Of a stretch of 50,495 nt of DNA, positions 18,345 to 46,868 are shown piece after piece. Position numbers and translations under genes: made by a program. This DNA comes from Rhodospirillaceae bacterium (lineage in GTDB: Bacteria; Pseudomonadota; Alphaproteobacteria; Rhodospirillales; Rhodospirillaceae): contig WOUV01000011.1 in NCBI GenBank assembly GCA_009773045.1, positions 1-50,495 on the forward strand, read 5' to 3'. How positions within the stretch are numbered: the stretch's first letter is position 1; each line of letters starts with the position of its first letter. The notes under the pieces were generated by a model, which was given only the letters and a program-made list of their open reading frames with translations, was not told the origin of the DNA and did no database searches.

Positions 18345-19241
18345 TCATGTCAAAAGTGACTTGATGGCCAGCAGATAAAGCCGATGGATGTTGACCTCGA
18401 TCAAGCCCTCATGCCCTTTCCGGACCCGAAGAGCATCGTGCGCCACGGCCTCAAGGGCCGCGAAGAACACGTCATCGACGCCGCTTTCATAACAGGCCGG
18501 GTTGAACAACGCCGCGCCGGCCATGCTCAACAACAGGGAAAATGCCTTCTCTGGCGTGTGATGCGTGGTTTCCCGTTCAATCTAGGCGTCGTGCACCTCG
18601 AAACCGCTCCTGTTGAACAGGGACACGTATTCCTCGGCCGTTGCCATGAAAAATACAGGATCGCGAAAGCGCCTGAAATCCTCGCTGGTACGGGGATCCT
18701 GGGCCGCGACCGTCATGACATCGCGCACCAACGAACACCATTGACGGGTCGCCGGGACCTGAACCCCCAGCCAGCCACCACGCCGCAAGGCCCGGTAGCA
18801 TCCATCCACCGCCCGGCCCGGCCCAGTGAACCACTGCAAGGCTGAATTGCAGAATATGATGTTGAAGGTGCCGTCGAAATCAAGATCCTCCGCCCCGCCC
18901 ACCAGAAAGGTGATCCCGGTTCTCTGGGTACGCCAACGCGCCTGGGCGATCATGCCCGCCGAGAGATCGATTCCCACAAGCTTGCCCTTCGTGCGGGTTC
19001 GCAAGCGACGGGTCAGATGGCCGGGACCGCAACCAAGATCGAGAACGGAATCCTGCGGTCCCACCGCCAGCATCTCAAGCAAACGTTCCCCCGCCGCGCG
19101 TTCCAGAACGGCCATGCGTTCATAACTGGGCGCAAGGCGCGAGAACGCCGCCCGGATGTGTGAACCCGGGTCATGGCGGCCCGGGTGTTGAACGGGACAA
19201 TCCCTTCTCATGCCCCCTCCGGATGTAACCGCAGATGCCAT
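18345..19241 (-). pseudogene. SAM-dependent methyltransferase (BioC-like) interrupted by an in-frame TAG at 18582-18584
   Basis: VLDLGCGPGHLTRRL, LVGIDLSAGMIAQAR, FNIIFCNSALQWF. After FEVHDA-TAG the same frame continues IERETTHHTPEKAFSLLLSMAGAALFNPACYE...VNIHRLYLLAIKS. Confidence 0.75.
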
Positions 19242-19458: not shown

Positions 19459-21754
19459 TCAGACGCCGTTCACCATTTCCGGCGTAATGGAATCATCCTC
19501 TTCCAGGGTTTCGCCGCCTTCCCGCGGCTTGGGGACCGTTTCTTCCAGACACTCGAAGACAAGCCGTCCCTCCTCCACCCGTACCCGGACGGCGCCCCCG
19601 TTGTTCAGACGTCCGAACAGCAGTTCTTCGGCGATGGGTTTCTTGACGTGTTCCTGGATGATCCGCCCCAAGGGCCTGGCGCCCATGAGCCGGTCATAGC
19701 CCTTCACGCTCAACCAGGTTGGCAAGCTGGGCCTCAAGCTGCAAAACGAACTTGTCCACCACCTGCCCCATGACTTCGGGCGACAGGGAACGAAAGCCGA
19801 TGATCGCATCGAGTCGGTTGCGGAACTCGGGAGAGAAGGTGCGTTCGACGGCCTCCTGATCTTCGCCCGTCCGTCCTTCCCGCCCGAACCCCATGGCCGG
19901 ACGCGCCAGATCGGATGCCCCAGCGTTGGTTGTCATGATCAGAATAGCGTTACGAAAATTGATGCTTTTGCCATTGTGATCGGTCAGGCTGCCATGATCC
20001 ATGATTTGCAGTAAAATATTGAACAGATCCGGATGCGCCTTTTCGATTTCATCCAACAGCAACACACAGTGTGGGTGTTGATCGATGGCATCGGTCAAAA
20101 GCCCGCCCTGATCGAAACCGACATACCCCGGGGGCGCCCCGATCAACCGCGAAATCGAATGGCGTTCCATGTATTCGGACATGTCAAAGCGGATCAACTC
20201 GATGCCAAGGGTTCGGGCAAGCTGGCGGGCCACTTCGGTCTTGCCAACGCCGGTCGGACCCGAGAACAGGTAATTGCCGATCGGCTTTTCCGGCTCGCGC
20301 AAACCGGCACGGGCAAGCTTGATGGCGCTGGCAAGGATGCCGATGGCCGCATCCTGCCCGAAGACCACCCGCTTCAGTTCATGATCGAGGGTTTTCAACA
20401 CTTCGGCATCGTTCCGCGAGATGCTTTTGGGGGGGATGCGGGCAATTTTGGCGACGATTTCCTCGATATCCCGCAGCGTCACCGTTTTGCGGCGGCGGCT
20501 TTCCGGCAACAACATGCGGGAGGCGCCCACTTCGTCGATCACATCGATGGCCTTGTCGGGCAGCTTGCGATCGTGAATATATTTGGCCGCGAGTTCCACC
20601 GCCGCCCGGATGGCTTCCGTGGTATACCGCACGCGGTGGTGCGATTCGTAATAGGGCTTCAGTCCCTTCAGGATCTTGATCGAGTCCTCAATGGATGGCT
20701 CGTTGATGTCGATCTTCTGGAAGCGGCGCACCAGCGCCCGGTCCTTTTCGAAATGACTGCGGAACTCTTTATAGGTGGTGGAGCCGATGCAGCGCAAGGA
20801 ACCGGAGGCCAATGCCGGCTTTAACAGGTTCGAGGCATCCATCGACCCGCCCGAGGTGGCCCCGGCACCGATGACGGTATGGATTTCATCGATGAACAGC
20901 ACTGCGCCGGGAAAACTCTCCAACTCCGACACCACATTCTTCAACCTTTCCTCGAAATCCCCACGGTAACGGGTCCCGGCCAGCAGCGCCCCCATGTCCA
21001 GGGCAAAAATAGTGGCATCGCACAGAACGTCAGGCACTTCCTTGCACACGATGCGGCGGGCCAGTCCTTCGGCGATGGCGGTTTTTCCAACCCCCGGGTC
21101 CCCTACATACAAGGGATTGTTCTTGGTGCGACGGCAGAGAATTTGGATGGTGCGTTCGATCTCGGCCTCCCGTCCGATCAGCGGGTCGATCCGGCCTTCC
21201 CGTGCCTTGTGATTGAGGTTGATGCAATAGGCGCTCAGGGCTTCCTGTCCTTTTTTCACCACGTTTTCCGCGTGGCCTTCCTCGATCGTTCCATGCACGG
21301 TGCGCCGTTCGTTACGATGAGGGACCTTGGCGATGCCGTGGGAAAGATAGTTGACCGCATCGAGCCGCGTCATGTCCTGGAGTTGCAGGAAATAAACCGC
21401 ATGGGATTCCTGTTCCGAAAACAGGGCGACCAGGACATTGGCCCCGGTGACTGCCTCGTGCCCCGAGGCCTGAACATGAATGGCCGCCCGCTGGACCACC
21501 CTCTGGAAACTCGCCGTCGGCTTGGGATCAATGGCCCGTCCTGTCACCAGGGCCGCCAGTTCGGTGTTCAGAAACTCGGTCAGGTCGCGTCGCAACCGTT
21601 TAAGATCGATATTACAGGCGCGCAGCACCCCCATCGCGTCGCGATCATCGGCCAGAGACAACAAAAGATGCTCCAACGTTGCATATTCGTGCCGACGTTC
21701 GGCTGCAAGGGCGAGGGCATGATGAAGACTTTGCTCCAAGGTGCGCGACATCAT
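19459..21754 (-). pseudogene. clpA: ATP-dependent Clp protease ATP-binding subunit ClpA, frame broken near 19700-19725
   Basis: GDPGVGKTAIAEGLA, GPTGVGKTEVARQLA and ClpA N-domain in ORF 19694..21754; C-terminus WLSVKGYDRLMGARPLGRIIQEHVKKPIAEELLFG in ORF 19459..19809. Confidence 0.9.
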
Positions 21755-29601: not shown

Positions 29602-30696
29602 TCAATCCGCCGCTGCCGATTCTTCCAATATTGCGTGCTGCGCTTTGTGTTCACGCATGCCCTTGAGCAGCGATCCCAGAACGATTCCCGCCCCCACCAG
29701 CAGCGCAAGAATCATGATGGCAAAACTTGTCCTTTCAAGCAGCGTCATGGTCTTGGGCGCCAGGGGCGTCATCATCTCAAGCTGTGAAAGATAAACCGGC
29801 ACCACGAATCCCCGGCTGACCAGCACCATCACCATGATCACCCCCATGACGACCTTGATCATGTAAGGTTTGACATACGTGGTGCCGATGGCACCAAGCT
29901 GGATGCCGAACAGGGACCCGGCCAGAATGATCATGGCAAGGCGGATATCGACATAGCCGCTCCAGGCGAACTTGATGGTACCGCCCACGCCCATGACAAA
30001 GGCGGTGACGAGTTCGCTGGCGGACGCCATCAGGCTGGGGACGCCCAACATATAAATCATCGACGGCACGCCGACGAATCCGCCAACGGCGATGGTCGCG
30101 GCCAGCATGCCGGTCGCAAAACCCATGGGAATGGTAATCAGGACAGAAACCCGGGCGTTGATGCTTTTGAAATAGACCATCGTGCCGGGAATGGTGATGG
30201 ATTGGACCCACAGCGCCAGCCGCCCCGCCTTTTCCTCGGCGTGCGTCAGACCGGACCGATGCGTCTGGTACGCATCGCGCAGCACATAACCGCCAACGAC
30301 GGCCAGCACCACCACGAAGGCGACGCTGACATACAGGTTGGAACCGGCATCGCCAAAGTTCCGCTTGATCACTTCCTGAATATGGACGCCATAAAGCACC
30401 CCGGCCTCCGCCGAAGCCCCCATGATCAGGCCCAGCTTGACATCCACCTGCCCATACTTGGCCCGCTTGATGGCCCCCACCAGCGCCTTCGGAAACTTGT
30501 GACACATGTTGCTGGCGACCGCCATGATTCCGGGGACGCCCATGCTCATCATCGCCGGGGTCAGAACGAAGGCGCCGCCCGAGCCGATGAACCCGCTCAC
30601 CAAGCCGCCCACGAAGCCGACAAGGAAAAGATAAATGAGACCAAACGTGTCAAGTGTATAGGGAAGTGTGTCAATGACGCTTGAAACCGAATCCAC
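29602..30696 (-). CDS. TauE/SafE-family membrane transporter
   Basis: VGFVGGLVSGFIGSGGAFVLTPAMMSMGVPGIMAVASNM, multi-TM. Confidence 0.8.
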   Translation of the reverse strand: MDSVSSVIDTLPYTLDTFGLIYLFLVGFVGGLVSGFIGSGGAFVLTPAMMSMGVPGIMAVASNMCHKFPKALVGAIKRAKYGQVDVKLGLIMGASAEAGVLYGVHIQEVIKRNFGDAGSNLYVSVAFVVVLAVVGGYVLRDAYQTHRSGLTHAEEKAGRLALWVQSITIPGTMVYFKSINARVSVLITIPMGFATGMLAATIAVGGFVGVPSMIYMLGVPSLMASASELVTAFVMGVGGTIKFAWSGYVDIRLAMIILAGSLFGIQLGAIGTTYVKPYMIKVVMGVIMVMVLVSRGFVVPVYLSQLEMMTPLAPKTMTLLERTSFAIMILALLVGAGIVLGSLLKGMREHKAQHAILEESAAAD

Positions 30697-31010
30697 TGTC
30701 GTGCCCCTTCTGTCATGCCCCTTCGTTGCAGAAAAATAGCCCTACCTTCAAACACCTTTTCTTTTTCTTTCTACGCCTTCTTTCCATGTCGCCCGGAAAC
30801 GGGGGCACTCCTGGAAATGCCGTGGGGACTTCCAAGAGACACTTCTGAAAACTTCCGTCGTCGTGGTTCGCGGCTTCTCCCCAGAGCACCGCAAGCGACT
30901 TCCCCCACGGCCTGCGCCCACAGGCCGGCACCCTACCAGAGTCCCCAGAGAAGGTTTTCAGAAATGCCCGTCATGAACGCCTGTCTGCGGAGCGTTCCGC
31001 AAACGCATCA

Positions 31011-31250
31011 TTATTTCTTGGCCCGCACCCCCAGCACGTCCCAAAAGCCGCTCGTAAATGTTCCATGAACAAATGAAAAAACGAACGCAATCACAATCGG
31101 AATGATGAACATTTCCCCGCCTTTTCCAGACAGGTCAAGAAGTTCGCGTTCATACCTGAACAGAAGAACGTACAGAACCAGACTTGCGACACCAAATCCC
31201 ATGGTGATCATGATCTGGGATGCGCGCGCACCGCCCCCGTTTCTTGCCAT
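31011..31250 (-). CDS. Small two-TM protein, probable partner of the TauE/SafE gene
   Basis: MARNGGGARASQIMITMGFGVASLVLYVLLFRYERELLDLSGKGGEMFIIPIVIAFVFSFVHGTFTSGFWDVLGVRAKK. Confidence 0.65.
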   Translation of the reverse strand: MARNGGGARASQIMITMGFGVASLVLYVLLFRYERELLDLSGKGGEMFIIPIVIAFVFSFVHGTFTSGFWDVLGVRAKK

Positions 31251-31477: not shown

Positions 31478-32434
31478 TCACTTTCCGGTCAAAACGGCCC
31501 GCAGTTCATCCTCCGCCACGGGAGCCGTCTTCTCGTGCGCGTGCTTCTGTTCATGCTTGTGTCCGCCGGTGGCCCGGATATGCAGGGCGCCAAGATGGGG
31601 CACTCGGGAGCTGACGGACTCCTTCACGGTTTCGCACAGACGGTGCGCCTCCGCCACCGACAGGTGGGGATCGACCGCAAGAACCATGTCCCCCCAGATT
31701 TCCTGCCCCACGTGGCGGGAGCGGAACTGGGGGACGGCCACCACACCCGGCGTCGCGCGGGCGATGGCCAGAATATGCCCGCGCATGGGTTCATGCACGC
31801 TGCGATCCATCAACCCCTTGCAGGCCTCCCAGAAAATCCACACGCCAAGGTAAAGAAGATCAAAAGTCTCAAAAATGGCGATGGCAACGTCAAGCCATGT
31901 CATCCCCAGATAATGCGCCCCGACGATTCCCCCCGCCACCATTCCGGAGGTCACCGCGTCGGAGTGGCTGTGCCTGGCCAGAGTGTGCACCATCGGACTG
32001 TTGGTCTCGATCGCGACACATCCCGCGTAACGGTTCATGAACAGATTGACCGCAACCGCCACCAGCGCCGCCCACAAGGCGACCAGATGGGGCGCCTTGT
32101 GTTCCTCGGGTCGCAACAAAATCTGCACAGTATGTACCAGCAGATAGCCAGTGATGACCAGAAATACAACGCTGATGACCAGAGACAAAACAAATTCGAT
32201 CTTGCCATGACCATAGGGATGGTCTTCATCCAGCGGCTTGTCGGAAACCGAAAGACCGACGATGACCAGAAGGGAAGTAATGACGTCTTTTACAGAATAC
32301 ATGGTATCGACCAGCATCGCCTGCGATCCGGAAACCAGACCGACCAGCGCCTTCATGAACGCCAGCGCCAGATTGATGCCAAGCCCCACCCAGCCGACGG
32401 TCCGGACACAGGCAACGCAGCGATCGAACCGCAT
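31478..32434 (-). CDS. mamM: Magnetosome CDF transporter MamM
   Basis: GWVGLGINLALAFMKALVGLVSGSQAMLVDTMYSVKD, DEDHPYGHGKIEFVLS, RCVAIETNSP-like segment, RHVGQEIWGDMVLAVDPHLSVAEAHRLCE; matches my recollection of Magnetospirillum MamM along its length. Confidence 0.87.
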   Translation of the reverse strand: MRFDRCVACVRTVGWVGLGINLALAFMKALVGLVSGSQAMLVDTMYSVKDVITSLLVIVGLSVSDKPLDEDHPYGHGKIEFVLSLVISVVFLVITGYLLVHTVQILLRPEEHKAPHLVALWAALVAVAVNLFMNRYAGCVAIETNSPMVHTLARHSHSDAVTSGMVAGGIVGAHYLGMTWLDVAIAIFETFDLLYLGVWIFWEACKGLMDRSVHEPMRGHILAIARATPGVVAVPQFRSRHVGQEIWGDMVLAVDPHLSVAEAHRLCETVKESVSSRVPHLGALHIRATGGHKHEQKHAHEKTAPVAEDELRAVLTGK

Positions 32435-32513
32435 GTTTCTTTCCCTTTGAAGGCATTCCATTCGTGCGCCTTACCGATCAAGCCCCCCCCCCGGCATCCG
32501 ATGCGCACAGGCC

Positions 32514-32756
32514 TCATGCCCCACGATGACGCAGGATCACTTCCTTACGCCGCGCGTCTTCCCCCCGGCGCCGGTGCATCGCCTGGAGCAGAAGAGCGGC
32601 GATGGCCGTTACAAAACCGGCCAGAAAAGCCACTCCCACCACGACAACCACAGGCGCCTCGAAGGCGAGCACGAAATAAACGGAAACGACATGAAGATTC
32701 TGTGACGTAAACAGTATGATCGCAGCCACCAGAACACTGTAGACGATGAATCTCAC
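32514..32756 (-). CDS. mamL: Magnetosome protein MamL-like (GTG start, 80 aa)
   Basis: MRFIVYSVLVAAIILFTSQNLHVVSVYFVLAFEAPVVVVVGVAFLAGFVTAIAALLLQAMHRRRGEDARRKEVILRHRGA; LapA-like two-TM with basic tail, between mamK and mamM. Confidence 0.75.
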   Translation of the reverse strand: MRFIVYSVLVAAIILFTSQNLHVVSVYFVLAFEAPVVVVVGVAFLAGFVTAIAALLLQAMHRRRGEDARRKEVILRHRGA

Positions 32757-32791
32757 AACACCGCTTCCTTGGAAGGATCGTTCCACGGACC

Positions 32792-33820
32792 TCACGTTTC
32801 CATCGTCGTGTGCCCAAGTTTGCTCCAATATTTCGGCGGCAGTTCCTGGGCCAGTTTCAAGGCGCCCGCGCATCCGTCATAGATCGGATCGGCCACCGCC
32901 GTCACCCGCACCGCGCCGTAATCGACCAGTTCGGCGGTGATGAAGTCCGCAAGCCCCCGGATCTGGGACCCGCCGCCGGCCAGGATGATGTTTTGCAGGA
33001 CCACCGCCTGATCCTCCGGCGGAAATTCTTCCACCAGCCGCTTCACATTTTCGATGATATCGGGCAGGACAGACTCACAGGCCGTTCGGATCTGTTCCCC
33101 CACCTCGAGAGTCACCGGTTTGCCGCCGGCGCGCAAGGCAACCTCCACCGGCCCCTGGCCGGGACCGACAAAGGCGTGCGCTTCCTTGATGGCGCACGCG
33201 ACGTTCAGATTCATCTGGACATGGGGATAGCGTTCGAGGAGTGCTTCTTGCAGACATTCGTCAATGAAATGGCCCGCCTTCGTCAAGGTCACCTGATCTT
33301 CCGGTGCCGGCATCCTGCCTTTCATGGCGCACAAATCCACCGTCCCGGCGCCGATGTCGATGACAAGGGCGTTCATGAGCTTGCCCTGGCCATAGGCCAC
33401 CATGAACGGTTCCGAGACCACCATGGCGGTGTGCAGGACATCCTGGGCGATACGCAAAAGGGCGGATTTATTGGCGTTCGAGGCCCGGGCCGGCACGCCG
33501 ATGACGGCACAAAGCCCTTCCCCTCCTCCGGCGCGACCGACGACGTAGCGCATCAGGTCATGGGCGACATCAACGTCACGCTGGCTGTATTCCCGCAAAA
33601 CGCCATCTTCGAGCGGATAGCGCAAGTCGAGAAACGAACGCTTCTCGTAGGCTTCATCCCCCACCAGCAACGGCGCCCCCAGCAATTTCAGGCCGATGAC
33701 ATCCTTGGGGTATCCAACCACCGAGCGGATGACTTCCCGTAATCCCCGATTGGACATGATGGCGGTTCGTGATGTCCCAAAGTCGATTCCCAACAATAAT
33801 GATTCATCCGCGGCGTTCAT
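32792..33820 (-). CDS. mamK: Magnetosome actin-like protein MamK
   Basis: LLLGIDFGTSRTAIMSNRG, SVVGYPKDVIGLKLLG, LDLRYPLEDGVL, CAVIGVPARASNANKSALLRIAQDVLHTAMVVSEPFMVAYG, IDIGAGTVDLCAMKG, LAGGGSQIRGL. Confidence 0.93.
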   Translation of the reverse strand: MNAADESLLLGIDFGTSRTAIMSNRGLREVIRSVVGYPKDVIGLKLLGAPLLVGDEAYEKRSFLDLRYPLEDGVLREYSQRDVDVAHDLMRYVVGRAGGGEGLCAVIGVPARASNANKSALLRIAQDVLHTAMVVSEPFMVAYGQGKLMNALVIDIGAGTVDLCAMKGRMPAPEDQVTLTKAGHFIDECLQEALLERYPHVQMNLNVACAIKEAHAFVGPGQGPVEVALRAGGKPVTLEVGEQIRTACESVLPDIIENVKRLVEEFPPEDQAVVLQNIILAGGGSQIRGLADFITAELVDYGAVRVTAVADPIYDGCAGALKLAQELPPKYWSKLGHTTMET

Positions 33821-33917
33821 TTCTTTCTTCCCCGCTGCATTGTGCGGCCCCACGACCAAAATTCTAGCACGTCGACACGCTTTGCGCCAGAGCCGTCCCC
33901 TGCGCCTGCATGCGGCG

Positions 33918-35734
33918 CTACAGCACGGCGTAGAACACAACGCCTCCGCGTCCTGTTTTCACAAGAATATCTCGTTGCCCGGAAACGCCACGCAACACGC
34001 GCGCCAGGGCCTGGGGGGTATCCACCGGTTCGTTGTTGATCGTGAAAAGAAAATCTCCCGGACGCAGTCCAGCCCCGGCCGCCGGCGAGCCGGCCCGCAC
34101 TTCGTTCACCACCGCACCCGTCCAGGGTGCCCCCTGTCATCGCACCCGTCAGGGGGTCCCCCTTTGGCGCTTGCACGGTCATTTGGCCGAAAGTTTCGAT
34201 CTCAAGGCCCAGTCAAGTGAACTCCTTGGGAGTCGTTCCGGCCGCGGGGGGAGTCATTCCGGCCGCGGGGAGAATCGTTCCGGCCGCGGATGCTGGCGAC
34301 GGTGCATTTGCCCCTTCCTGCAGGGCCATCGTCCGGTCGCGACGCCGCCCTTCCCGAAGAACCGACAGGCGGACCGTCTCCCCGGGTTTGCACGCCCCCA
34401 GCATCGCCTGCACCTGGGCCGGTGTGGAAACCCGGCGCCCGTCCACCTTGATCAAAACATCACCCGGCGCGATCTCCGCCCCCGTCAGGGGGGAACGGGG
34501 CGCGACGGCGGCGATGAAAATTCCCTCCCCCGCCCCGCGGCCGATTCGCCGGCCCAGGGGCGGCGTCAGGGGATGCATCTGCGCCCCCAGCACCGTCACC
34601 CCCGCCACGTTGACCCCAAGCGTCCGGGAATCGAACGGCGCAGAAACGACCCCCGCCAAGCCTCCGGCCGGCGGAAACATCTGATGGCAGGCCAGGCAGT
34701 TCGCTTTCTCCCGCCCGTCGGTGTGCGCGGCGCCACCGCCCCGACTCGTATGGGCGGAGCCGCGTTGGCGTTCGGCAGCGCCACCGGTCGCGCCAGTTCT
34801 CCCCCGATTTCCTTTTCCAGGAACGCGCGCACCGTGTTGCTGGGGATGGCGAACCCGATCCCTGAAAAAGCCCCGGTCGGCGTATAGATGGCCGTGTTGA
34901 TGCCAATCACGGAGCCTTCCCCGTTCACCAGCGGTCCGCCGGAGTTGCCTTGATTGATGGCGGCATCGGTTTGAATCAGGTCAGAGTGGGTCACCCCTTC
35001 GATGGCGAGCGCCTTGCGTATGCCAGAAACGATGCCGCGGCTCACCGTCTGGTCAAGACCAAAGGGACTGCCGATGCTGATGACCTCCTCGGCCAGGCGC
35101 ACCCGGTCGCTGTCCCCAAGGATGACCGCGGGTAACGGCGTTTTGAGTGCGATGTGTAAAAGCGCAAGATCGACCCTTTCATCGAGCCGGATGACCCGCG
35201 CCGTATAGCGCCGCGTTCCCCCGTCGTCGAACACGGTCACCTGGGCGCCGGAGGCGCCGCGCACGACGTGGGCATTGGTCACGATGAAGCCATCCCCGCG
35301 GAGGACGATGACACCCGATCCCATGTTCTCCAGCACCCCGCCGGCAAGGGGGGTTGCGAACTGCACATCGCCCTCGGGTCGCGGTGTCGTGATGGGGGCC
35401 GTGAGAGGGGCCGTCACGGAGGGGCCGGGGCGAAGCACGGTCACATTGACCACGCTGTCGCGCAACGCCAGGGCGATCTGGGAAAAATCGCGCCCAACGA
35501 GCCGTCCCGGACGCTCCGCGGGAGAGAAGGCGGCGCCAGCGGAAACGACGCGACAGGCACCACCCCCGGGGCATTGACAACGACGGCAGGCGATCGCCCC
35601 CCCAAACCCACCGACTGCCCCCACGCCGCCGCCAGAATGAGAACGGCAAGGGCGCCGATTCCATACAGATATTTCCGTGAATGTTTCGCACAGACGACCG
35701 ATGACTCCTCCCCTTCCTCCCCCTCCTCCATCAT
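33918..35734 (-). pseudogene. mamE: Magnetosome HtrA-like protease MamE (trypsin-like domain, magnetochrome CXXCH, PDZ domains), frame broken several times
   Basis: TM anchor SRKYLYGIGALAVLILAAAW; VTNAHVVRG (His), RVDLALLHI (Asp), NQGNSGGPLV (Ser); ANCLACHQMFPPAGG magnetochrome; PDZ1 GIFIAAVAPRSPLTGAEIAPGDVLIKVDGRRV; PDZ2 VVNEVRAGSPAAGAGLRPGDFLFTINNEPVDTPQAL. Confidence 0.82.
34229..34291. repeat. Three tandem 21-bp units in the MamE inter-PDZ linker
   Basis: GGAGTCGTTCCGGCCGCGGGG / GGAGTCATTCCGGCCGCGGGG / AGAATCGTTCCGGCCGCGGAT. Confidence 0.9.
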
Positions 35735-35736
35735 TC

Positions 35737-35943
35737 CTACCCCTCGTCTCCGAGCAGATCGTCATCCTTGCTCCGCTCGGGCGTTCGCACCGCCGTCACC
35801 CCGACGGCGAGGGCGAGAAGACCCACGATCACCAGCACGATCGGAACCAGCCCACGCAGGAGATCCACGACAGACCACCACCAGACCGCTCCTCCCCACA
35901 GGCCAAGCGCCATCGCCAGCAAACCAACAATAATCCACGGCAT
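35737..35943 (-). CDS. mamI: Magnetosome protein MamI (68 aa)
   Basis: MPWIIVGLLAMALGLWGGAVWWWSVVDLLRGLVPIVLVIVGLLALAVGVTAVRTPERSKDDDLLGDEG; two-TM, located between mamH and mamE. Confidence 0.85.
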   Translation of the reverse strand: MPWIIVGLLAMALGLWGGAVWWWSVVDLLRGLVPIVLVIVGLLALAVGVTAVRTPERSKDDDLLGDEG

Positions 35944-35953
35944 TCTCCCGCCC

Positions 35954-37247
35954 TCACATTCCATTTTGCGACGTTTCACCGCCGTCAGAGGCTCGTGCCG
36001 GCTGTTGCGCAGCCCCGCGGCCCCCATCATGACCCACAGCGCATAGCACACTATGACCACGTTGCCTAGACCAGTGAACACGAAAGGCGCGTAAGGCCCC
36101 ACGGCATCGAACAGCACACCGCCTGTTTCCAGAAACACGATGACGCCGATTCCCCCCCCGACCACATTGAACGCCCCCATCACCGACCCCAGAATCGACC
36201 GCGGCGCAAGGTCGATGGCCAGCACCTGCGGCGGCCACAAGGCACCCCCCCTGACCGGCGGCCAGAATCACGGCCGGCAGAACGATGATTCCCTTGAATG
36301 GATTGACGATGAACCCCAGCCCGATCAGCCCCACACCGGACAACGCCATGCCGGCGGCCAAGGCCGTGATGCGCCCGAATCGTTCGATCACCCGTCCCCA
36401 CACTGGAATCGATACCAGCACAACGAGTCCCACGAGACCGATCAGAAGGCCGTCCGTCGCCGCGGCCCGTTCCTGTGATATCCCCACAAGATCAGCGAAA
36501 TAGATATACCATAACATGAAGAACATGCCAACCAGAACCATATCACTGCGGGCAAAAAACGCCGCGGCGAAGGCGAGTCGCATGCGGGGGTCCGAACGCA
36601 GGAGATGCCCGATCCGGCGCCAGGGAATCCGGCTTTCCTCAGGACGCGGCGCCACATCCACAAGACACCCTCTGGCCAGGACCGCCCCCGCGAAGGGCCA
36701 CCGCCGCCGTCATCAGCATCACCGTGACCGTCCCGACATGGGGCGTCATCTGTATCAGCACGGCATAAACCAGTGTCGCCCCGAAGGCCGTCATGAAGGC
36801 GGCATTGGCCATCAACCGGGGTCGGCTGGTGGCGGAGCTGAAATCTCCGACCAATGTCGTCAACTGCGGCCACACCGCCCCCGCCCCCAGGGACATGATG
36901 ACCCGCGCCATGGAATAAACGGCAATGCCCCCCACGCCGAACAGAACCGCAAGGTCCGGACTGAACGGCGCCAACACCGCGCCACATCCCGCCACCACGA
37001 ACCCGACGATGATGATCGGGACCCGCCCCAGACGATCGGACAAATAGCCAAGATACCCGACCAGCACAAGGCCAAGGACTTCCGTCACCACCTGCACGTT
37101 GGCATTGATGACCCCGGCGCTGGCCAACGGAACGGCCAGCACGGTTCGCAAAAACAACGGCTGAATGGCCACCGACAAGGCGAGGAAAATCATCGTCAGG
37201 GCCGCCAGCAGGTAAAGACCGTTGTAATGCCTGAGTTCGATGGACAC
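35954..37247 (-). pseudogene. mamH: Magnetosome MFS transporter MamH, frame broken near 36670-36690 and near 36235-36251
   Basis: MSIELRHYNGLYLLAALTMIFLALSVAIQPLFLRTVL...[116 protein letters not shown], spread over three ORFs. Confidence 0.87.
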
Positions 37248-37410
37248 GCCCCCCCCCTTTGATACCTTCCGAGTCTGGATCGTGACCGATCACGACTCCC
37301 CCTCGGGCGCCGGGCATCCGCGGCTCGTGGCTGACGTGCCGTTCGGCGCGGTCACGGCGGTTCCTTGAGCATACGTCAAGACCGACGCGCAAGGGTATGA
37401 AGTCTTTCCT

Positions 37411-37740
37411 TCAAAGCCGCATGGCGAGCCAGAACACGCCCGGCAGTTTCCATACCCGGTTGAACGCCACCGACACAAGGCCCATTAGGGAAAAAACGCT
37501 GACCATCAGAGCGGAAAAACTGAACATCCACTTCCCGACCCCGGGCATGTGCAACCCGAACAGGCCAAGGATTCCCCACATCCACAGAACCAGACCCTGC
37601 CGCGCATGAAAATGGACATATTCATCGTCCCTGTTGAGGACCAGCGGGACAAAAACAAGAACGCTAAGATAGCTTAATGCGGCCATCAGGCGGGTTCGCA
37701 TATCTCCCCGGCTGCGCAGAAACATTTTCCGTGCCGGCAT
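37411..37740 (-). CDS. MamF/MmsF-family magnetosome membrane protein
   Basis: [82 protein letters not shown]. Confidence 0.83.
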
Positions 37741-37881: not shown

Positions 37882-38283
37882 TCACGTGGGCTTCTGATCA
37901 CGGCTCAGGCCAAGACGCGCCAAGTCCCCGATGTAATCCCGCCAGCGGTCTTCTTGGTTGTCCCCAAGAGTATACAGGTAATCCCACGAATAGATGCCGG
38001 TGTCGTGCATATCGTCAAAAACGATGGCGATGGCATAGTTGCCGATGGGCTGAATGGCCGTGATGCCGACGGTGCGGCAGCCGCCGGGAGTCTTTTTCTC
38101 ATCGGGGCCATGACCCTGCACTTCCGCCGAAGGACTCTCAACCCGCAACAGTTCCGCCGACAGGGTAAAGGTCCGTCCGTCGTCGAAATCGATTTCCAGC
38201 ATCTTTTCCGCCTTCTTCAGGCGCAATTCGACCGGCCAGTGCCGCGTGCCGAACGACACGACCGGGGCGGAATCATCGGTCAT
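37882..38283 (-). CDS. DUF971 family protein
   Basis: [44 protein letters not shown] ... [25 protein letters not shown]. Confidence 0.88.
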
Positions 38284-38630
38284 CGGCGCACCTCTGAGCG
38301 GTCGTCTTCAAGACGGCGGGCTTCCGACACCAACATGATAGGGATGCCATCCCGGATCGGATAGGCAAGACCGGCCTGATCGCTGATCAATTCCTGTGTT
38401 TGTGGGTTGTAACGCAAGGACCCCGGAGTGCGTGCCTGTGGGCAGACCAGAAGTTCCAACAGTCTTGGGTCTATCCCGGCCTTGCTCTCGTCCCTGGCTT
38501 TATTCTCGACCCCGGCTTTACTTTCGTCCCCGGCCTTGCTCTCGTCCCTGGCTTTATTCTCGACCCCGGCTTTACTTTCGTCCATTGGGTGTTTCCTTTT
38601 CCCTGTGTTTTCATTACTGCACGATGCCAC
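38280..38630 (-). CDS. Trm112 family protein with a repetitive charged N-terminal extension
   Basis: [56 protein letters not shown]-terminus made of [12 protein letters not shown] hexapeptides. Confidence 0.8.
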
Positions 38631-39288
38631 CGCCCCCTGTTTCCAGCAAACCCATTTCGATCAAGGCAATCAACAGTTTCCCCCGTTCTTCGACCGTTGA
38701 AACTTCCAGCAGGGCCTGTTTCTCGCGCACGGCAAACGGACACAACATGGCCGCCGCCGTGACCAGGGTGGCATCCGAAAAATTATCCAGAATTTTCCAG
38801 TTCAAAGTGATGCGCTTCTGAAGGAAATAGGACTTGAGACACGCCAGCAGCCGCTTGCGATCAATCACCGGGGCATCCCCGGGATCTTCCATGTCGGCAT
38901 GGAACGGGGTGTAGGTCACCTCTGCCTGGCGGTAGCCGCCGTTGGCCAGGGCCAGCTCGCGCTGGATGCGAAAGCGGCACACGCCCACCAGCGTGATGAG
39001 CAAACGCCCGTCTTCCGTTTCACTGAACGAGGCCATGCGGCCAAGGCACCCCAGATCATAAACCCGCGGGAACGCCCGCCGTGTTTCCAACGGCTCTTCC
39101 GGCTGAGGCTGCACCATGCCGATCATCCGTCCGTTGCCCAACGCTTCCAAAGTCATGGCAAGATAGCGGGGTTCGAACATATTCAACGGCAACCGCCCCC
39201 CCGGCAGCAGCAGCACCCCTGCCAAAGGAAAAATGGCGATCACCCGCGGCAGGGCCACGAACGCCGTTTCAAAAGGCCCCTCTGTCAT
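38614..39288 (-). CDS. LON peptidase N-terminal (substrate-binding) domain protein
   Basis: [34 protein letters not shown] ... [30 protein letters not shown]. Confidence 0.9.
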
Positions 39289-39326
39289 GAAGGCTCCCCG
39301 TCCATGCTCCTCCCCGATTCCGTACC

Positions 39327-40265
39327 TTACGAAAACATGATCGACGACAGTTTCCGCCGTGAGTGTACCGTCAACGGATCGCTCGGACCAAAGGCCTCGA
39401 ACAGCTTCAGGAGCTGGCGGCGGCCGCCATCATCATTCCATGACCGGTCCCGTCGAACGATTTCCAAAAGCTCATCCACCGCCTTTTGGGAATTGCCGGC
39501 GGCGTAACAGGCCATGGCGAGATCCTGGCGCGCCTGATGGTTCATCGGGTCGGTATCGACCGCCTGTTGCAAGGCGGAGATGCTCTGGCCCGTCGCGGCC
39601 GTGGACGCCAGTTCCAGCCGGGTCTTGATGGCGAGGATCTCGGGCTTTGCGCAAAGATCGGCGGGAAGCTGGTTCAACATTTCCCTGGCGGCACCGGTTT
39701 CGCCCTGGGCGATGAGGCACTCCATCACGCCGGCAAGGGCCACGGGGTTGGCCGGGTCCTGTTCCAGAACCTTCTGATAAAGCTCCTTGGCCTTTTTGAA
39801 GTCATTGTGTTCGCGCACGGCCTTGGCGTCGGCCAGAATCTGGTCGATGACGGACGCGCCCCCGCTCGCGACACGGGTCAGGAACGCCTTGATCTGGCTT
39901 TCCGGCAGGGCACCGACGAATCCATCCACCAGCGCCCCGTTCTTGAACGCAAAAACCGCCGGAATGGAGGAGACTCCCAGTTGCGCAGCCAGTTTCTGGT
40001 TCTCATCCACATTGACCTTCACCATGCGGACGGTCCCGCCAAACTGGCGCACGAGCTTTTCCAGCATCGGCCCCAAGGTCCGGCAGGGACCACACCACGG
40101 CGCCCACAAATCGACGATAACGGGCACCCGTCGCGATGCCTCGATCACATCGGCCATGAACCCGACGGTGTCACAGGCCTTGACGAGATCGTCCGGCCCT
40201 TTTTCCCCGGTGGGTTTGTGGCCTTTGGCGGCCCCCCCTTTGCGGATAAAATCCATTATCCCCAT
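39327..40265 (-). CDS. Thioredoxin with TPR domain (CnoX/YbbN-like co-chaperone)
   Basis: VIVDLWAPWCGPCRTLGPMLEKLVRQFGGTVRMVKVNVDENQKLAAQLGVSSIPAVFAFKNG, then TPR-like helices. Confidence 0.9.
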   Translation of the reverse strand: MGIMDFIRKGGAAKGHKPTGEKGPDDLVKACDTVGFMADVIEASRRVPVIVDLWAPWCGPCRTLGPMLEKLVRQFGGTVRMVKVNVDENQKLAAQLGVSSIPAVFAFKNGALVDGFVGALPESQIKAFLTRVASGGASVIDQILADAKAVREHNDFKKAKELYQKVLEQDPANPVALAGVMECLIAQGETGAAREMLNQLPADLCAKPEILAIKTRLELASTAATGQSISALQQAVDTDPMNHQARQDLAMACYAAGNSQKAVDELLEIVRRDRSWNDDGGRRQLLKLFEAFGPSDPLTVHSRRKLSSIMFS

Positions 40266-40504: not shown

Positions 40505-40550
40505 AAGGTACCCGTCTCTCAGAGAGTAAGGTACCCGTCTCTCAGAGAAT
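40505..40550 (+). repeat. Two tandem 23-bp repeats upstream of the molybdoenzyme start
   Basis: AAGGTACCCGTCTCTCAGAGAGT then AAGGTACCCGTCTCTCAGAGAAT; each contains the palindrome TCTCTCAGAGA. Confidence 0.93.
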
Positions 40551-40560
40551 GAGGAAAGCG

Positions 40561-43500
40561 ATGGCGAAGGACGATCACACCCCGCAAGGGTTCAGCAGAC
40601 GGCGATTCTTGACAACCCTGGCCCTTGGCGGTGCCGGCAGCGCGGCCCTGTCGCAACACGCCGTGGCGGCCATGGGAAATCTCGTGCCTTTGGTCGTGGA
40701 CAATCCTTTACAAGCCCATCCGGATCGTGACTGGGAAAAGGTGTATCGCAATCTTTACGCCCACGATTCGACATTCACGTTTCTTTGCGCGCCCAACGAT
40801 ACACACAATTGCCTTTTGAACGCCTTTGTCAAAAACGGGGTCGTGACGCGAATCGGCCCGACCTATGGTTTCGGCAAGGCAACGGACCTCGATGGCAAGG
40901 CCGCAAGCGGCCGCTGGGACCCCCGCTGTTGCCAGAAGGGTCTTGCACTGGCGCGGCGCTTTTATGGCGACCGCCGGGTCAAGCGACCCATGGTGCGCCA
41001 GGGATTCCTCGCCTGGGCCAAGGCGGGTTTCCCGCACGATTCCAAAACCGGCGGCCCTGATCTCAAATACATGAACCGCGGTCGCGACTCGTGGGCCACC
41101 GTCAGCTGGGATGAAGCCCTCGCCCTGGAGGCGGCGGCCCTGATCGATATCGCCAAAACCTATTCGGGCAATGCCGGCACGCAACGACTGCTGGCGCAAG
41201 GGTACGATCCCCTGGTGGTCGAGGCCACCGGCGGGACGGGAACACAGGTGCTGAAATTCCGCGGCGGCATGCCCGCCCTGGGGATCACCCGCATCTTCGC
41301 CCAGTATCGCATGGCCAATGCCATGGCGCTTCTGGACGACACGATCCGCGGCACCGGAGCGGACAAAGCGGTGGGCGCCCGCGGTTGGGATAACTATAGC
41401 TGGCACACGGACCTGCCGCCAGGACATCCGATGGTCACCGGCCACCAGACCAACGACTTCGATCTTTCGTGCGCCGAACATGCCGACCTGATCCTGGTCT
41501 GGGGCGTGAACTGGATCACCACCAAAATGCCGGACGGGCACTGGCTGAGCGAGGCCCGCCTGAAGGGTACGAAAGTGGTGGCCATCTCCGCCGAATACAG
41601 CGCCACCTGCACGCCGGCCCTTGCCCTGGGTCTTGCGCAGGTGATGCTGACGGAAAAACTGTATGATGCCGATTACGTCAAAAGTGCCACCGATCTGCCG
41701 TTGCTCGTGCGCATGGATACCGGCGATCTGTTGCAAGCGGCCGCTGTGTTCGCCGATTACAAACTGGCGGATCTGAAAAACGGCATCACCCTGCTGAAAG
41801 AAGGCGACACGCCTCCCAAAGGCACCCAGGAATCGGGAGCCGTCGTCACCGAGAGCATGCGCCGGAAATGGGGCGATCATGTGGTCTAGGACAGCGCCCG
41901 AAAAGTTCCGGTTGCCGTCAACCGCGATCAGGTGGACCGGCATTTTCTGGACCTTGGCTTTGACCCGATGCTGGAAGGAACGGTGGAGGTGCCTCTGGCC
42001 GATGGCCAAAAGGTTTCCTGCCGGCCGGTCTTCGATGTCATGAAAGAACTGCTCGATGGCAGCTATACCCCCGCCGATGTGGAGAAACTGACCTGGGCAC
42101 CGGCGGAAGCGGTGCGGAGCCTTGCCCGGCAGATTGCCGCCAACAAGGAAAAAACCCTGTTTGCCATGGGCATGGGACCAAATCAGTTCTTCAACAACGA
42201 TCTCAAGGACCGCGCCGTGTTTCTGGTCGCGGCCCTGACCCGGAATATCGGGCGCGTCGGCGGCAACATTGGCAGCTTCGCCGGCAATTTCCGCGCCGCC
42301 TTCTTCAACGGCCTGCCGCAATATATCGCCGAGGACCCGTTCAACATCGAGAACGACCCGGCCAAACCCGCCCGGGTACGCTCGCGCTGGAAAGCGGAAA
42401 GCGTCCATTACTGGAACCACGGCGACAAGATCTTGCGGGTCGGGACCGCGGTCCTCACCGGCAAAAGCCACATGCCAACGCCCACCAAATCGATTCACGT
42501 CTCCAACTCCAACTCGCTGATCGGCAACGTCAAGGGCCATTACGAGGTGGTGGTCAACGTCCTGCCCAAGGTCGAACTGCTGGCCGTCAATGAATGGTGG
42601 TGGACGGCCAGTTGCGAATGCGCCGATATCGTGTTCCCGGTCGATAGCTGGGCCGAGTTCAAGTATCCCGACGTGACCATATCGGTGACGAACCCGTTCC
42701 TGTATGTGTTCCCAACCACGCCGTTGCCGCGCATTCACGATACCCGTTCGGATCTGGAAGTAGCCGCCGGCGTTTGTCGCGCCATCGGCACCCTCACCAA
42801 CGATGCCCGTCACGACGCCTATTGGCAGTTCGTGGAGAAAGGCCAGGGGCGGCCTTATATCCAGCGTATCCTCGATGCCTCCAACGCGACCCGTGGCTAT
42901 ACGATCGACGATCTGGAAGCCAAGGCGAAAAAAGGCGTGCCGGCCATCATCCAGACCCGCACCTATCCGAAATGGTCGGGCTATGAACAGACCATGGAGG
43001 CGAAACCATATTACACCCGCACCGGGCGGCTTGAGTTCTATCGCGATGAACCCGAGTTCAAGGACGCCGGCAAGAACCTGATCGTGCACCGCGAGCCGAT
43101 CGATTCAACTTTTTATGAACCAAACGTCATCGTCGCCAAGGCCCATCCGCTCCTGAAGCCGAAAGGCCTGAAAGAATACGGGCTGAACGGCGATGATCTG
43201 TCGGGTGAAACCCGCCAGGCCCGCAACGTCATCCGCACCGTCGATGAGCTGCTCAAAACGAAACATCCCCTGATGCAGGAGCCGGGCTACCGCTTCATTT
43301 TCCACACTCCCAAATACCGTCACGGCGCCCACACGACGGCGGTCGATACCGATATCGTCGCCCTGTGGTTCGGCCCGTTCGGCGACATGTACCGCACCGA
43401 CACGCGCCAGCCCTTCGTCACGGAAGCCTTTATCGATATCAACCCGAAGGATGCCAAGGATCTGGGGGTCGAGGACGGTGACTACGTGTATATCGACGCC

Positions 43501-44019
43501 GATCCGCACGACCGCCCGTTCCACGGTTGGCAGAACAAGCCCGAGGCCTATCAGATGGCCCGGCTGCTGGCCCGCGCCCGCTATTACGCCGGCACGCCGC
43601 GGGGGGGGGTGACCCGCATGTGGCACAACATGTATGGCGCCACCTATGGTTCTTATGCCGGACACACGGCGAAAAACGGCAACGGCCTCGCCAAGGCACC
43701 CGGCACCGGCTATCAGTCCCTGTTCCGCAGCGGCAGCCACCAAAGCTGCACCCGCGGCTGGATCAAGCCCACCTTGATGACCGACAGCCTGACCGTCAAG
43801 GGCCTGTTCGGCCAGCGGGTGGTGCAAGGGTTCGTGCCCGATGTTCACTGCCCAACCGGCGCCCCCCGCGAGTCGATGGTGCGCATAGCCAAGGCGGAAA
43901 ACGGCGGTCTCAATGGCAACGGCCTGTGGCTGCCGGCGGCGCAAGGCTTGCGTCCCACCTATGAACGTCCGGCGTTCAAGGACTATATCGCCGGTCAATT
44001 CGTCCGGACCGGGGCTTGA
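40561..44019 (+). pseudogene. Type II DMSO-reductase family molybdopterin oxidoreductase, catalytic subunit (NxrA/NarG-like); in-frame TAG at 41887-41889
   Basis: TAT signal SRRRFLTTLAL; FS0-type Cys region LCAPNDTHNCLLNAFVKNG...[32 protein letters not shown] (Mo-ligand Asp region). ORFs 40549..41889 and 41932..44019 are in the same frame, separated only by TAG. Confidence 0.85.
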
Positions 44020-44036
44020 GGGAAGGAACCATCATC

Positions 44037-45161
44037 ATGGCACGCAACAATCGTCACATCGGGCGCACGATGGCCTATCCTTACGAGGCGCCGCCGCCAA
44101 AGCGGCAATCGGCCATTATTTTCGATCCCAACAAGTGCATCGCCTGCCAAACCTGTTCGGTCGCCTGCAAGTCAGCCTGGACCAGCGGCAAGGGGCAGGA
44201 ACACATTTTCTATAACAACGTCGAGACCAAACCCTATGGGGGCTATCCGATCGGCTGGGATCTGAAGCTGATGGAACGCCTGGGGCCGGCGCAGTGGGAA
44301 GGCGGACGCCTCGCCTCCAAGACCATTTTCGATGGCGGCGATCCTCTGGAAACCGTGTTCGGCCACGCGCCGGCCATGACCGATTACGCCAGCCCCAATC
44401 TGGGCGAGGACGAAGTGGCCGGCCAGCTTGAACACGGCGCCCACTTTGCCGGGGCAACGCATCCGTTGTGGATGTTCTATCTCGCGCGCACCTGCAATCA
44501 TTACGATAATCCGGCCTGCCTAGCCTCCTGCCCGCGCAAGGCCATCTACAAGCGCGAGGAAGACGGGATCGTTCTCATCGACCAGAAACGCTGCCGCGGC
44601 TATCAGGAATGCGTTCGCGCCTGTCCCTACAAGAAAACCTTTTTCAACGCGGTTAGCCGGGTATCGGAAAAATGCATCGGCTGTTATCCGCGCACCGAAC
44701 AGGGGGAAGTGCCGTTGTGCGTCGAAAGTTGCATCGGCAAGGTCCGTCTGCACGGTTTTTTGTCCACCGACACGCCGCGCGAGGACAACCCCCTCGATTA
44801 CATCGTGCGCATCCGCAAGTTGGCCCTGCCGCTCTATCCGCAGTTCGGCACCGGCCCCAATTCATACTATATCCCCCCGCTCAGCGTGCCCGAGAAGTTC
44901 CTGACCCAGATGTTCGGCCCGGGCGTCGAGGAGGCGCGCAAAACCTATCGCATGATCAAGGACGACAAGCAGCTTCTGGGCGCCATGATGCTGTTCGGTG
45001 CAAGCACACGCATCATCACGACGTTCAAGGTGGAAGGCGATACCGCTATCGGTTGGGACGGCGCGGGCAAGGAAGTGGCGCGGGTGCCCTTCACCGAGCC
45101 GGTTTATGTTCGTGACCACCGCGACGAGCGCTTTGCCGTCTATCGCCATAACACGCCGTGA
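44037..45161 (+). CDS. Iron-sulfur beta subunit (NarH/NxrB/EbdB-like)
   Basis: DPNKCIACQTCSVACKSAW, CNHYDNPACLASCPRKAIYKREEDGIVLIDQKRCRGYQECVRACPYKKTFFN, CIGCYPRTEQGEVPLCVESC. Confidence 0.92.
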   Translation: MARNNRHIGRTMAYPYEAPPPKRQSAIIFDPNKCIACQTCSVACKSAWTSGKGQEHIFYNNVETKPYGGYPIGWDLKLMERLGPAQWEGGRLASKTIFDGGDPLETVFGHAPAMTDYASPNLGEDEVAGQLEHGAHFAGATHPLWMFYLARTCNHYDNPACLASCPRKAIYKREEDGIVLIDQKRCRGYQECVRACPYKKTFFNAVSRVSEKCIGCYPRTEQGEVPLCVESCIGKVRLHGFLSTDTPREDNPLDYIVRIRKLALPLYPQFGTGPNSYYIPPLSVPEKFLTQMFGPGVEEARKTYRMIKDDKQLLGAMMLFGASTRIITTFKVEGDTAIGWDGAGKEVARVPFTEPVYVRDHRDERFAVYRHNTP

Positions 45162-45175
45162 TGGAGGCCACACCC

Positions 45176-46114
45176 ATGACGAAACCTGTCCGTTTTTCCG
45201 CCGCCGCCGCCTTTACCCTTGGCCTGTTCGCCTGGCCGCCGGCGATGCCCCCCATCGCCCATGCGGCCGAGACCCGGACGGCATGGTTGCCGTCCGGGAC
45301 CCTTATTCCCCTGCCGGCTAAACAGGCCGACGCCCTGAGGATCACGAAAACGGCCAAACTGCCCGTCTCGCCCCTGGACAAGGACTGGACGGCGGTTCCG
45401 GCCCTGCGTGTCGCCGTTCAGCCCCAGCAAATGACCGCCCCCAGCCTTGCCAAGGCCAGCATCTCCGCCCTGGAGGTCCAAGCCGTGACGGACGGCAAGG
45501 CGGTGGCCTGGCGGTTGACGTGGGAAGACCCCTTCCCCGACGGCAACGTGGAAACCAGCCGTTTCAGCGATGCGGTTGCCCTTGAGTTCCCCGTGTCCAA
45601 GGATGCGGCGGCCACCATGGGGCATCCCGACGGCGGGCGGGTGCAGATCCTGTACTGGAAAGCCCTGTGGCAAAAAGACAAGGACGTGGGCTTTCAGGAT
45701 GTCCAGGCCCTGCACCCGAATGTATATTCCGATCTTTACTGGTTCGCCTCGGGGGGAGCACCCTATCCGATGGCCACGGCCTTCAAGGACACGCGGTCCC
45801 AGGCGTGGCTGATCGCCCAATCCGCCGGCAATCCGATGGCGGTGGTCGGGAGGGCGCAACCGGTGGAGGAATTGACCGCCGAAGGGTGGGGAACCCTGAC
45901 CCACCAGCCCGATTCCGCCACCACCGCCGCGGGGGTCTGGGCGGCGGGCCGCTGGTCGGTCGTGTTCACACGTCCCTTGATGACAGGCGATTCCCTGGAT
46001 TACCAGTTCCAGTCCAGTGGTCAGGTGGCGTTTGCCGTCTGGCAGGGCGGCACGGGCAACACGGGGGGGCGCAAGCATTGGGCGGACTGGAGTACGTTTG
46101 AGGTGCAAAAATGA
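45176..46114 (+). CDS. Ethylbenzene-dehydrogenase-related heme-b gamma subunit
   Basis: Sec signal peptide; AVAWRLTWEDPFPDGN, RFSDAVALEFPV, GRWSVVFTRPL...YQFQSSGQVAFAVWQGGTGNTGGRKHWADWSTFEV. Confidence 0.82.
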   Translation: MTKPVRFSAAAAFTLGLFAWPPAMPPIAHAAETRTAWLPSGTLIPLPAKQADALRITKTAKLPVSPLDKDWTAVPALRVAVQPQQMTAPSLAKASISALEVQAVTDGKAVAWRLTWEDPFPDGNVETSRFSDAVALEFPVSKDAAATMGHPDGGRVQILYWKALWQKDKDVGFQDVQALHPNVYSDLYWFASGGAPYPMATAFKDTRSQAWLIAQSAGNPMAVVGRAQPVEELTAEGWGTLTHQPDSATTAAGVWAAGRWSVVFTRPLMTGDSLDYQFQSSGQVAFAVWQGGTGNTGGRKHWADWSTFEVQK

Positions 46115-46868
46115 ATGACGCGGCGCTGACTCCCGCGGCAGATTCACCGTTGCTGACGGTAACCGCGACGTGCCTTGCCTCCCTGCCCTTGCTGGCGCAA
46201 GCGGATCTGTTGCTGGCGGCCGCCCGTTTGTTCCGCCCGCCCGCCGCCGACCTCGCTGCCCTGACCGGCGACCTGGCGGCCGCCGCCGGCACACTGGTCC
46301 ATGGGGCCGGTCTGCCGGCGGCCCACGCGGTGGTGGAAACTCTGACCGCTCTCGCCGGAGCGGTCGCAACGACGCCGCCGGAAGAGTTGACGATTGAATA
46401 CGTGCGGCTGTTCGAAGGCGAGATGGCATGCCCGCCCAACGAAACCGCCTATATCCGTCGGGACAAGGGGGCGGTGCTGGGGGACATCGCCGGATTCTAT
46501 CACGCTTTCGGCGTTGCAACGGCGGCTTGTGAAAAACCCGACCACGTGGCCGCCGAATTGGAGTTCATGGCGGCCCTTCTGGTGATGCAGGTCAAGGCCA
46601 CGACGACGGAAAAGGCCGAAACCGCCCGCCATGCCCTGTCCCTATTCGTGGCGGATCATGCCGGAGACCGGGTGCCGTCATTCACAGCGCGCCTGGCCGC
46701 CGTGGCGGCCCTGCCGTCTATCAGCAAGCCGCCTCCCTGCTCGCCGCCATTTGGGAAGGCATGGCCGTCGTGCAGGGCTTTGCCATACCAGAACTCCTGC
46801 CGAACGGCGGAACGGATTCCCCAGACTCGTCCTGTGACATGACATGCGGCCTGCCGGGGGCTTCCTGA
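46111..46868 (+). pseudogene. TorD-like chaperone for the molybdoenzyme; frameshift near 46718
   Basis: LTIEYVRLFEGEMACPPNETAYIRRDKGAVLGDIAGFYHAFGV, ELEFMAALLVMQ. C-terminus YQQAASLLAAIWEGMAVVQGFAIPELLPNGG is in the next frame. Confidence 0.75.

Follow-up and report, generated by a model that had tools for sequence, protein, structure and literature searches.

A probable relic of a mamAB magnetosome gene cluster, split and broken, in a draft Rhodospirillaceae genome

Does a magnetosome gene cluster in a genome signal a magnetotactic cell or the remains of one? This question is raised by a 50,495-bp stretch of Rhodospirillaceae DNA (hereafter the window), which is the entire contig G000:C195 of a draft genome labelled G000 (241 contigs totalling 2,565,103 bp, with a listed completeness of 100% and contamination of 0%). 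On its minus strand, from 37740 down to 31478, a MamF-like gene is followed by mamH, I, E, K, L, and M, and the original prediction had proposed either a magnetotactic bacterium with a split cluster or a carrier of a reduced or relic one. Our analysis favours decay: the locus is probably what remains of a canonical alphaproteobacterial mamAB cluster that was inherited within the family, rearranged into three blocks, and has been decaying after the loss of motility. Two metagenome-assembled genomes of the same family, G017 (nDJH14bin10) and G020, hold an unsplit operon that includes mamS-T.

Gene content, lesions, and arrangement of the cluster

Gene identities were assigned by NCBIfam profile cut-offs (equivalog or subfamily) and domains by Pfam. 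MamM (NF033615; 418 bits, cut-off 350), MamK (NF040964; 498 bits, cut-off 400), and MamI (NF040963; 83 bits, cut-off 80) pass their cut-offs; for MamH, MamE, and MamL the family matched is the expected one, at scores below cut-off. MamE is an HtrA-type protease with Trypsin_2, two PDZ domains, and one magnetochrome CxxCH motif. The MamF-like protein had no match in NCBIfam or Pfam; its assignment comes from similarity to proteins of other mam loci, and in G040, too, such a gene lies directly upstream of mamH. The genes of the window block are:

37411..37740, minus strand: MamF/MmsF-like gene, open, 109 amino acids, 55% identical to MamF-like proteins of the LM-1 and G040 mam loci
35954..37250, minus strand: mamH pseudogene in three frames, matching NF040986 (MamH) piecewise
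35737..35943, minus strand: mamI, open, NF040963, no lesion in the frame-aware alignment
33918..35734, minus strand: mamE pseudogene, NF040960 (MamE) matched in three open reading frames (ORFs)
32792..33820, minus strand: mamK, actin-like gene, open, NF040964
32514..32790, minus strand: mamL, open, start uncertain, NF040988 (MamL; E=1.2e-8), 46% identical to G020 MamL
31478..32434, minus strand: mamM, CDF transporter, open, NF033615

The predicted identity, order, and strand of these seven consecutive genes therefore hold, the NCBIfam families confirming H, I, E, K, L, and M protein by protein, but the genes are not all intact, since mamH and mamE are broken. Within the window mamJ is missing between mamE and mamK, and mamN and the later genes do not follow mamM, both as had been noted.

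Lesions were located by frame-aware protein-to-DNA alignment against same-family orthologues. A total of 13 disabling lesions fall in five (mamH, E, N, S, and T) of the 16 mam genes of G000, while mamI, K, L, M, P, A, Q, R, and B and both sequenced ends of mamO are open and lesion-free. Three ORFs, each in a different frame, cover positions 1-186, 183-336, and 332-412 of the MamH profile, the frame-aware alignment reaches 71% identity to G020 MamH, and two +1 shifts, near 36698 and 36235, are robust. The coding sequence of mamE is spread over four frames, with three frameshifts and one in-frame TGA. There are three lesions in mamN (one at a run of seven G), one in mamS, and two frame shifts plus one TAG in mamT. 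Those inside the window are:

36690..36705, minus strand: mamH frameshift 1 (+1), outside a long homopolymer, frame-aware alignment
36225..36245, minus strand: mamH frameshift 2 (+1), near GTGGCCGCCGCAG, frame-aware alignment
35495..35635, minus strand: mamE frameshift (-1), exact place uncertain (two references give 35500 and 35632)
34725..34740, minus strand: mamE frameshift near 34730, +2 in a GCGC context, just ahead of the magnetochrome motif
34213..34215, minus strand: mamE in-frame TGA where G017 and G020 have Trp, frame-aware alignment
34120..34145, minus strand: mamE frameshift (+1) near 34125, ahead of the last PDZ domain

Identity of the broken genes to an outgroup is a few points below that of the relatives, and because it is only slightly reduced the loss looks recent. 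The genes mamI, E, L, M, O, Q, and B are named essential in Magnetospirillum (as cited in PMC9938234); in G000, mamE of this set carries four lesions, and a contig gap leaves mamO unfinished. Because mamE, one of the genes required for magnetite formation in Magnetospirillum, is broken, the cell, as judged from its sequence, most likely does not make functional magnetosomes, and we infer that no magnetite is formed.

The rest of the cluster lies elsewhere in G000. Contig C169 (6,695 bp) carries a DUF1015-like gene (named by eye), then mamN and, at the contig end, the N-terminal part of mamO. Contig C70 (6,986 bp) starts with the C-terminal part of mamO and continues with mamP, A, Q, R, and B, the sole MamB of G000, beyond which lie genes for a PhnD-like protein and a histidine kinase. 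About 210 MamO residues are missing between the two contigs, which, going by the gene order, would be adjacent in the genome. On C38, mamS-T lies between nuclease-like and hopene-cyclase-like genes (both named by eye); an intergenic repeat of about 74 bp adjoins mamT (locus L126, G000:C38, 6832-6905) and matches eight other places in 341 kb sampled. NCBIfam families were matched by MamN, O, P, A, Q, R, B, S, and T on these contigs, with MamB, MamP, and MamA likewise above the magnetosome cut-offs, and MamN, O, Q, R, S, and T, like MamH, E, and L, below them, in several cases because the genes are fragmented. The canonical order H-I-E-(J)-K-L-M-N-O-P-A-Q-R-B-S-T is thus kept within blocks and broken at M|N and B|S, giving three loci. 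Among 34 other loci (named genomes with a MamK relative and sequence present beyond mamM, counted by eye), mamM runs straight into mamN or mamO in 33, and in the remaining one (L112) the O-P-A block is inverted. The suggestion of a split cluster was therefore correct: mamB, mamO, mamP, mamA, and mamQ were all found in a genome-wide look, outside the window, and synteny with the unsplit operons of the same-family relatives holds inside the blocks only.

Motility genes, relatives, and surroundings of the window block

Lesions extend to the flagellar genes. In G000, fliF lies in two frames (locus L218, G000:C36, 2437-4077) and flgK in three (L181, G000:C90, 11493-13370), and FliG, FliH, and FliN are open. 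The search for FlhA gave no match in this draft genome, where C36 ends just after fliN, while six of the eight genomes searched have FlhA; FliF was matched in seven of the eight, including the broken copy of G000, and G009 is without it. Flagellar motility, as expected of a magnetotactic bacterium, is not supported by these genes, and to our knowledge a magnet is of no navigational use to a free-living cell without flagella. Frame breaks are also frequent in the genome at large, at 1.32 per 10 kb (about 272 kb of coding sequence sampled) vs 0.16-0.20 in GC-matched relatives, i.e. about seven times as many; another relative, with 70% G+C, gave 1.43, the method being judged unreliable there. Taken together, the original possibility of a magnetotactic organism finds no support, and that of a relic is favoured.

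The MamK+MamM tree places the window as sister to nDJH14bin10 (support 100/97). Inheritance within the family would be the simplest reading of these sequences, transfer within the family being also possible. The branch of the open mam proteins is long in G000 (0.70 vs 0.31-0.40 for G017 and G020), and the RpoB branch of G000 is ordinary (in a tree without G017 and G020). In that RpoB tree the nearest neighbour of G000 is G009 (support 100/100; 85% identical), which has 1.3 Mb, about 50% G+C in the sampled stretches, and few frame breaks, and in which profile searches gave no match to a MamB-type CDF, FlhA, or FliF; it looks like an advanced reduced genome. In the full mamH-to-mamT cluster of G020, the mamK position (L020, G020:C403, 3828-4836) yielded no MamK match and holds a mamJ-like and a small ORF.

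The block is bordered by the following genes:

37882..40265, minus strand: upstream flank, an operon of DUF971, Trm112, LON, and thioredoxin, kept in relatives without mam genes (G009 and G011 loci)
29602..31208, minus strand: downstream flank, a small membrane protein and TauE/SafE pair, conserved elsewhere as a pair

Among the relatives examined the Trx-LON-Trm112-DUF971 and small-TauE flanks were never adjacent, so that no clean empty site was found. Recent transfer as an island was rejected, because no transposase or tRNA flanks the block, as had been predicted correctly, and there is no compositional break. Elsewhere in the window, a molybdoenzyme operon of the nitrite-oxidoreductase/nitrate-reductase type (40549-46842) has a TAG near 41887 in the alpha subunit, where PDB 7b04 has Trp, and a nitrate-reductase delta-like subunit that is apparently frame-broken near 46713. 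A methyltransferase gene is interrupted by TAG at 18582, clpA is frame-broken (19459-21754, the C-terminal small domain being out of frame with the AAA domains), a TnpB-type gene (Cas12f1-like TNB domain) is split over two frames (497-2066), and an EipB-like gene is broken. The apparent Trp-to-stop changes in three window genes (mamE, the methyltransferase, and the molybdoenzyme) raised the possibility of TGA/TAG recoding, which was rejected because 38 of the 48 listed window ORFs end in TGA, mamI and mamE truly end in TAG, and the frameshifts would stay unexplained.

Decay weighed against other explanations

The main rival holds that the cluster is split yet functional, with lesions that are sequencing or assembly errors in a magnetotactic organism with a dispersed mamAB. 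Several observations weigh on its side and against decay. The lesion calls come from the draft assembly sequence, and G/C runs of at least five are frequent in the broken mam genes (7.9 per kb vs 2.3 per kb in core genes), one mamN lesion being such a run. In the single-copy gene adk, normally essential, an internal stretch of about 44 nt is missing and the frame is shifted (L175, G000:C5, 4573-5170). This reflects either faulty assembly or a remarkable loss, and because of it some of the lesions could be assembly-derived. Nine mam genes are still open, so that decay would have to be recent or incomplete, and the inventory is that of the mamAB genes up to mamT plus the MamF-like gene. However, core genes are free of lesions over about 28.5 kb (including full-length rpoB, rpoC, the L11-L12 genes, pgk, gap, gltX, and nrdJ), and adk is the only lesion in the S10-spc-alpha operon, against a density of 2.3 per kb in mamH, E, N, S, and T. 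If scattered at random, 13 lesions would touch 8.5 genes on average instead of the observed five (P(5 or fewer)=0.006 weighted by length, P=0.07 weighted by G/C runs). Moreover, lesion types are mixed, and several lie outside homopolymers (the +2 in GCGC, TGG to TGA or TAG, an inserted T). Where contigs leave a shared repeat, the sequence that they have in common does not exceed 99 bp, a sign of short-read de Bruijn assembly, and in such assemblies indel errors at this rate would be unusual; the flagellar genes, too, are broken. We infer that the lesions are biological rather than artefactual, consider it quite likely that they record real decay, and regard a functional dispersed cluster as unlikely.

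Two further explanations take the distribution of lesions as meaningful. One is that of a reduced organelle, in which vesicle and scaffold functions (I, L, Q, B, M, A, and K) are kept and mineral-forming ones (E, H, N, S, and T) are lost. Lesions are indeed concentrated in the latter genes and absent from the former, and in Magnetospirillum membrane formation depends mainly on MamB, M, Q, and L (PMC4902198). On the other hand, the open mam proteins have about double the evolutionary rate of their counterparts in the relatives, which suggests relaxed constraint. We know of no non-mineral function for such vesicles, and the gene-count test is weak once weighted by G/C runs, making this explanation highly improbable in our view. 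Another, improbable as well, is an ordered dismantling during a host-associated switch, in which the genes for mineral formation and iron handling (mamE, H, N, S, and T) would go first, the vesicle, scaffold, and chain genes would still be under some selection, and mineral-free magnetosome-like vesicles would be left. Finally, generic MreB-like, CDF, HtrA, and MFS proteins in chance order, the finding that would have undone the original prediction, deserve practically no credence. All of these proteins have relatives in the cytoskeletal, CDF, or HtrA superfamilies, but MamK, M, I, B, P, and A exceed magnetosome-specific cut-offs, the gene order follows mamAB, and the combined tree puts both MamK and MamM inside the magnetosome homologues, by which this explanation is already refuted.

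A decaying relic thus remains the preferred explanation. Its ancestor would have been a free-living magnetotactic cell that lost motility, possibly alongside host association; the cluster would next have been rearranged into F-H-I-E-K-L-M, N-O-P-A-Q-R-B, and S-T, and mam and flagellar genes would then have been disabled stepwise, a process that may have been completed in the line of G009. The driver might have been a change of lifestyle in which motility was given up, probably in association with a host, as genome reduction and decay suggest.

Comparison with known systems and significance

The mamAB clusters of G017 and G020 resemble that of G000 in genes and in order inside each block, but their passages from mamM to mamN/mamO and from mamB to mamS-T are unbroken, their frames are open, and both have a mamJ-like ORF. 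Rhodovastum atsumiense G2-11 shares with G000 the possession of magnetosome genes, probably without magnetosomes, and its cells are non-moving (PMC9938234). Its genes, however, are intact, silent, located in one 27.5-kb region, and recently acquired by transfer (PMC9938234), whereas those of G000 are broken and dispersed and its MamK+MamM group with a same-family genome; a silent, recently transferred island of the Rhodovastum type was rejected on these grounds. Terasakiella sp. SH-1 (PMC6819731) likewise has parts of mamAB at distant chromosomal places, but there they arose by duplication, the copies being intact and separated by about 172 kb, in contrast to the single-copy genes of G000 divided at M|N and B|S. 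The ciliate endosymbiont DsD-1 (PMC13103400) combines, as does G000, a reduced genome, a lost flagellum, and magnetosome genes; it is a member of the Desulfovibrionales that makes magnetite with a working cluster, whereas G000 belongs to the Alphaproteobacteria, carries disabled mam genes, and has no known host. Identity of G000 with the ciliate endosymbionts of that study was rejected, since none of them is alphaproteobacterial. None of these three is a dispersed cluster with disabled genes, and a limited search of the open-licence literature yielded descriptions of silent intact and of duplicated clusters and of no decaying one.

The patchy distribution of magnetotaxis is often explained by loss, and intermediates are expected to be short-lived. 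If our reading is true, G000 would be a datable intermediate, with a scattered cluster, recent-looking lesions, decaying flagellar genes, and a 1.3-Mb sister without mam-type genes, and the order of gene loss in the decay of magnetotaxis would become testable. In a family that includes magnetic bacteria, a system for magnetic navigation seems to have been caught in the middle of its loss.

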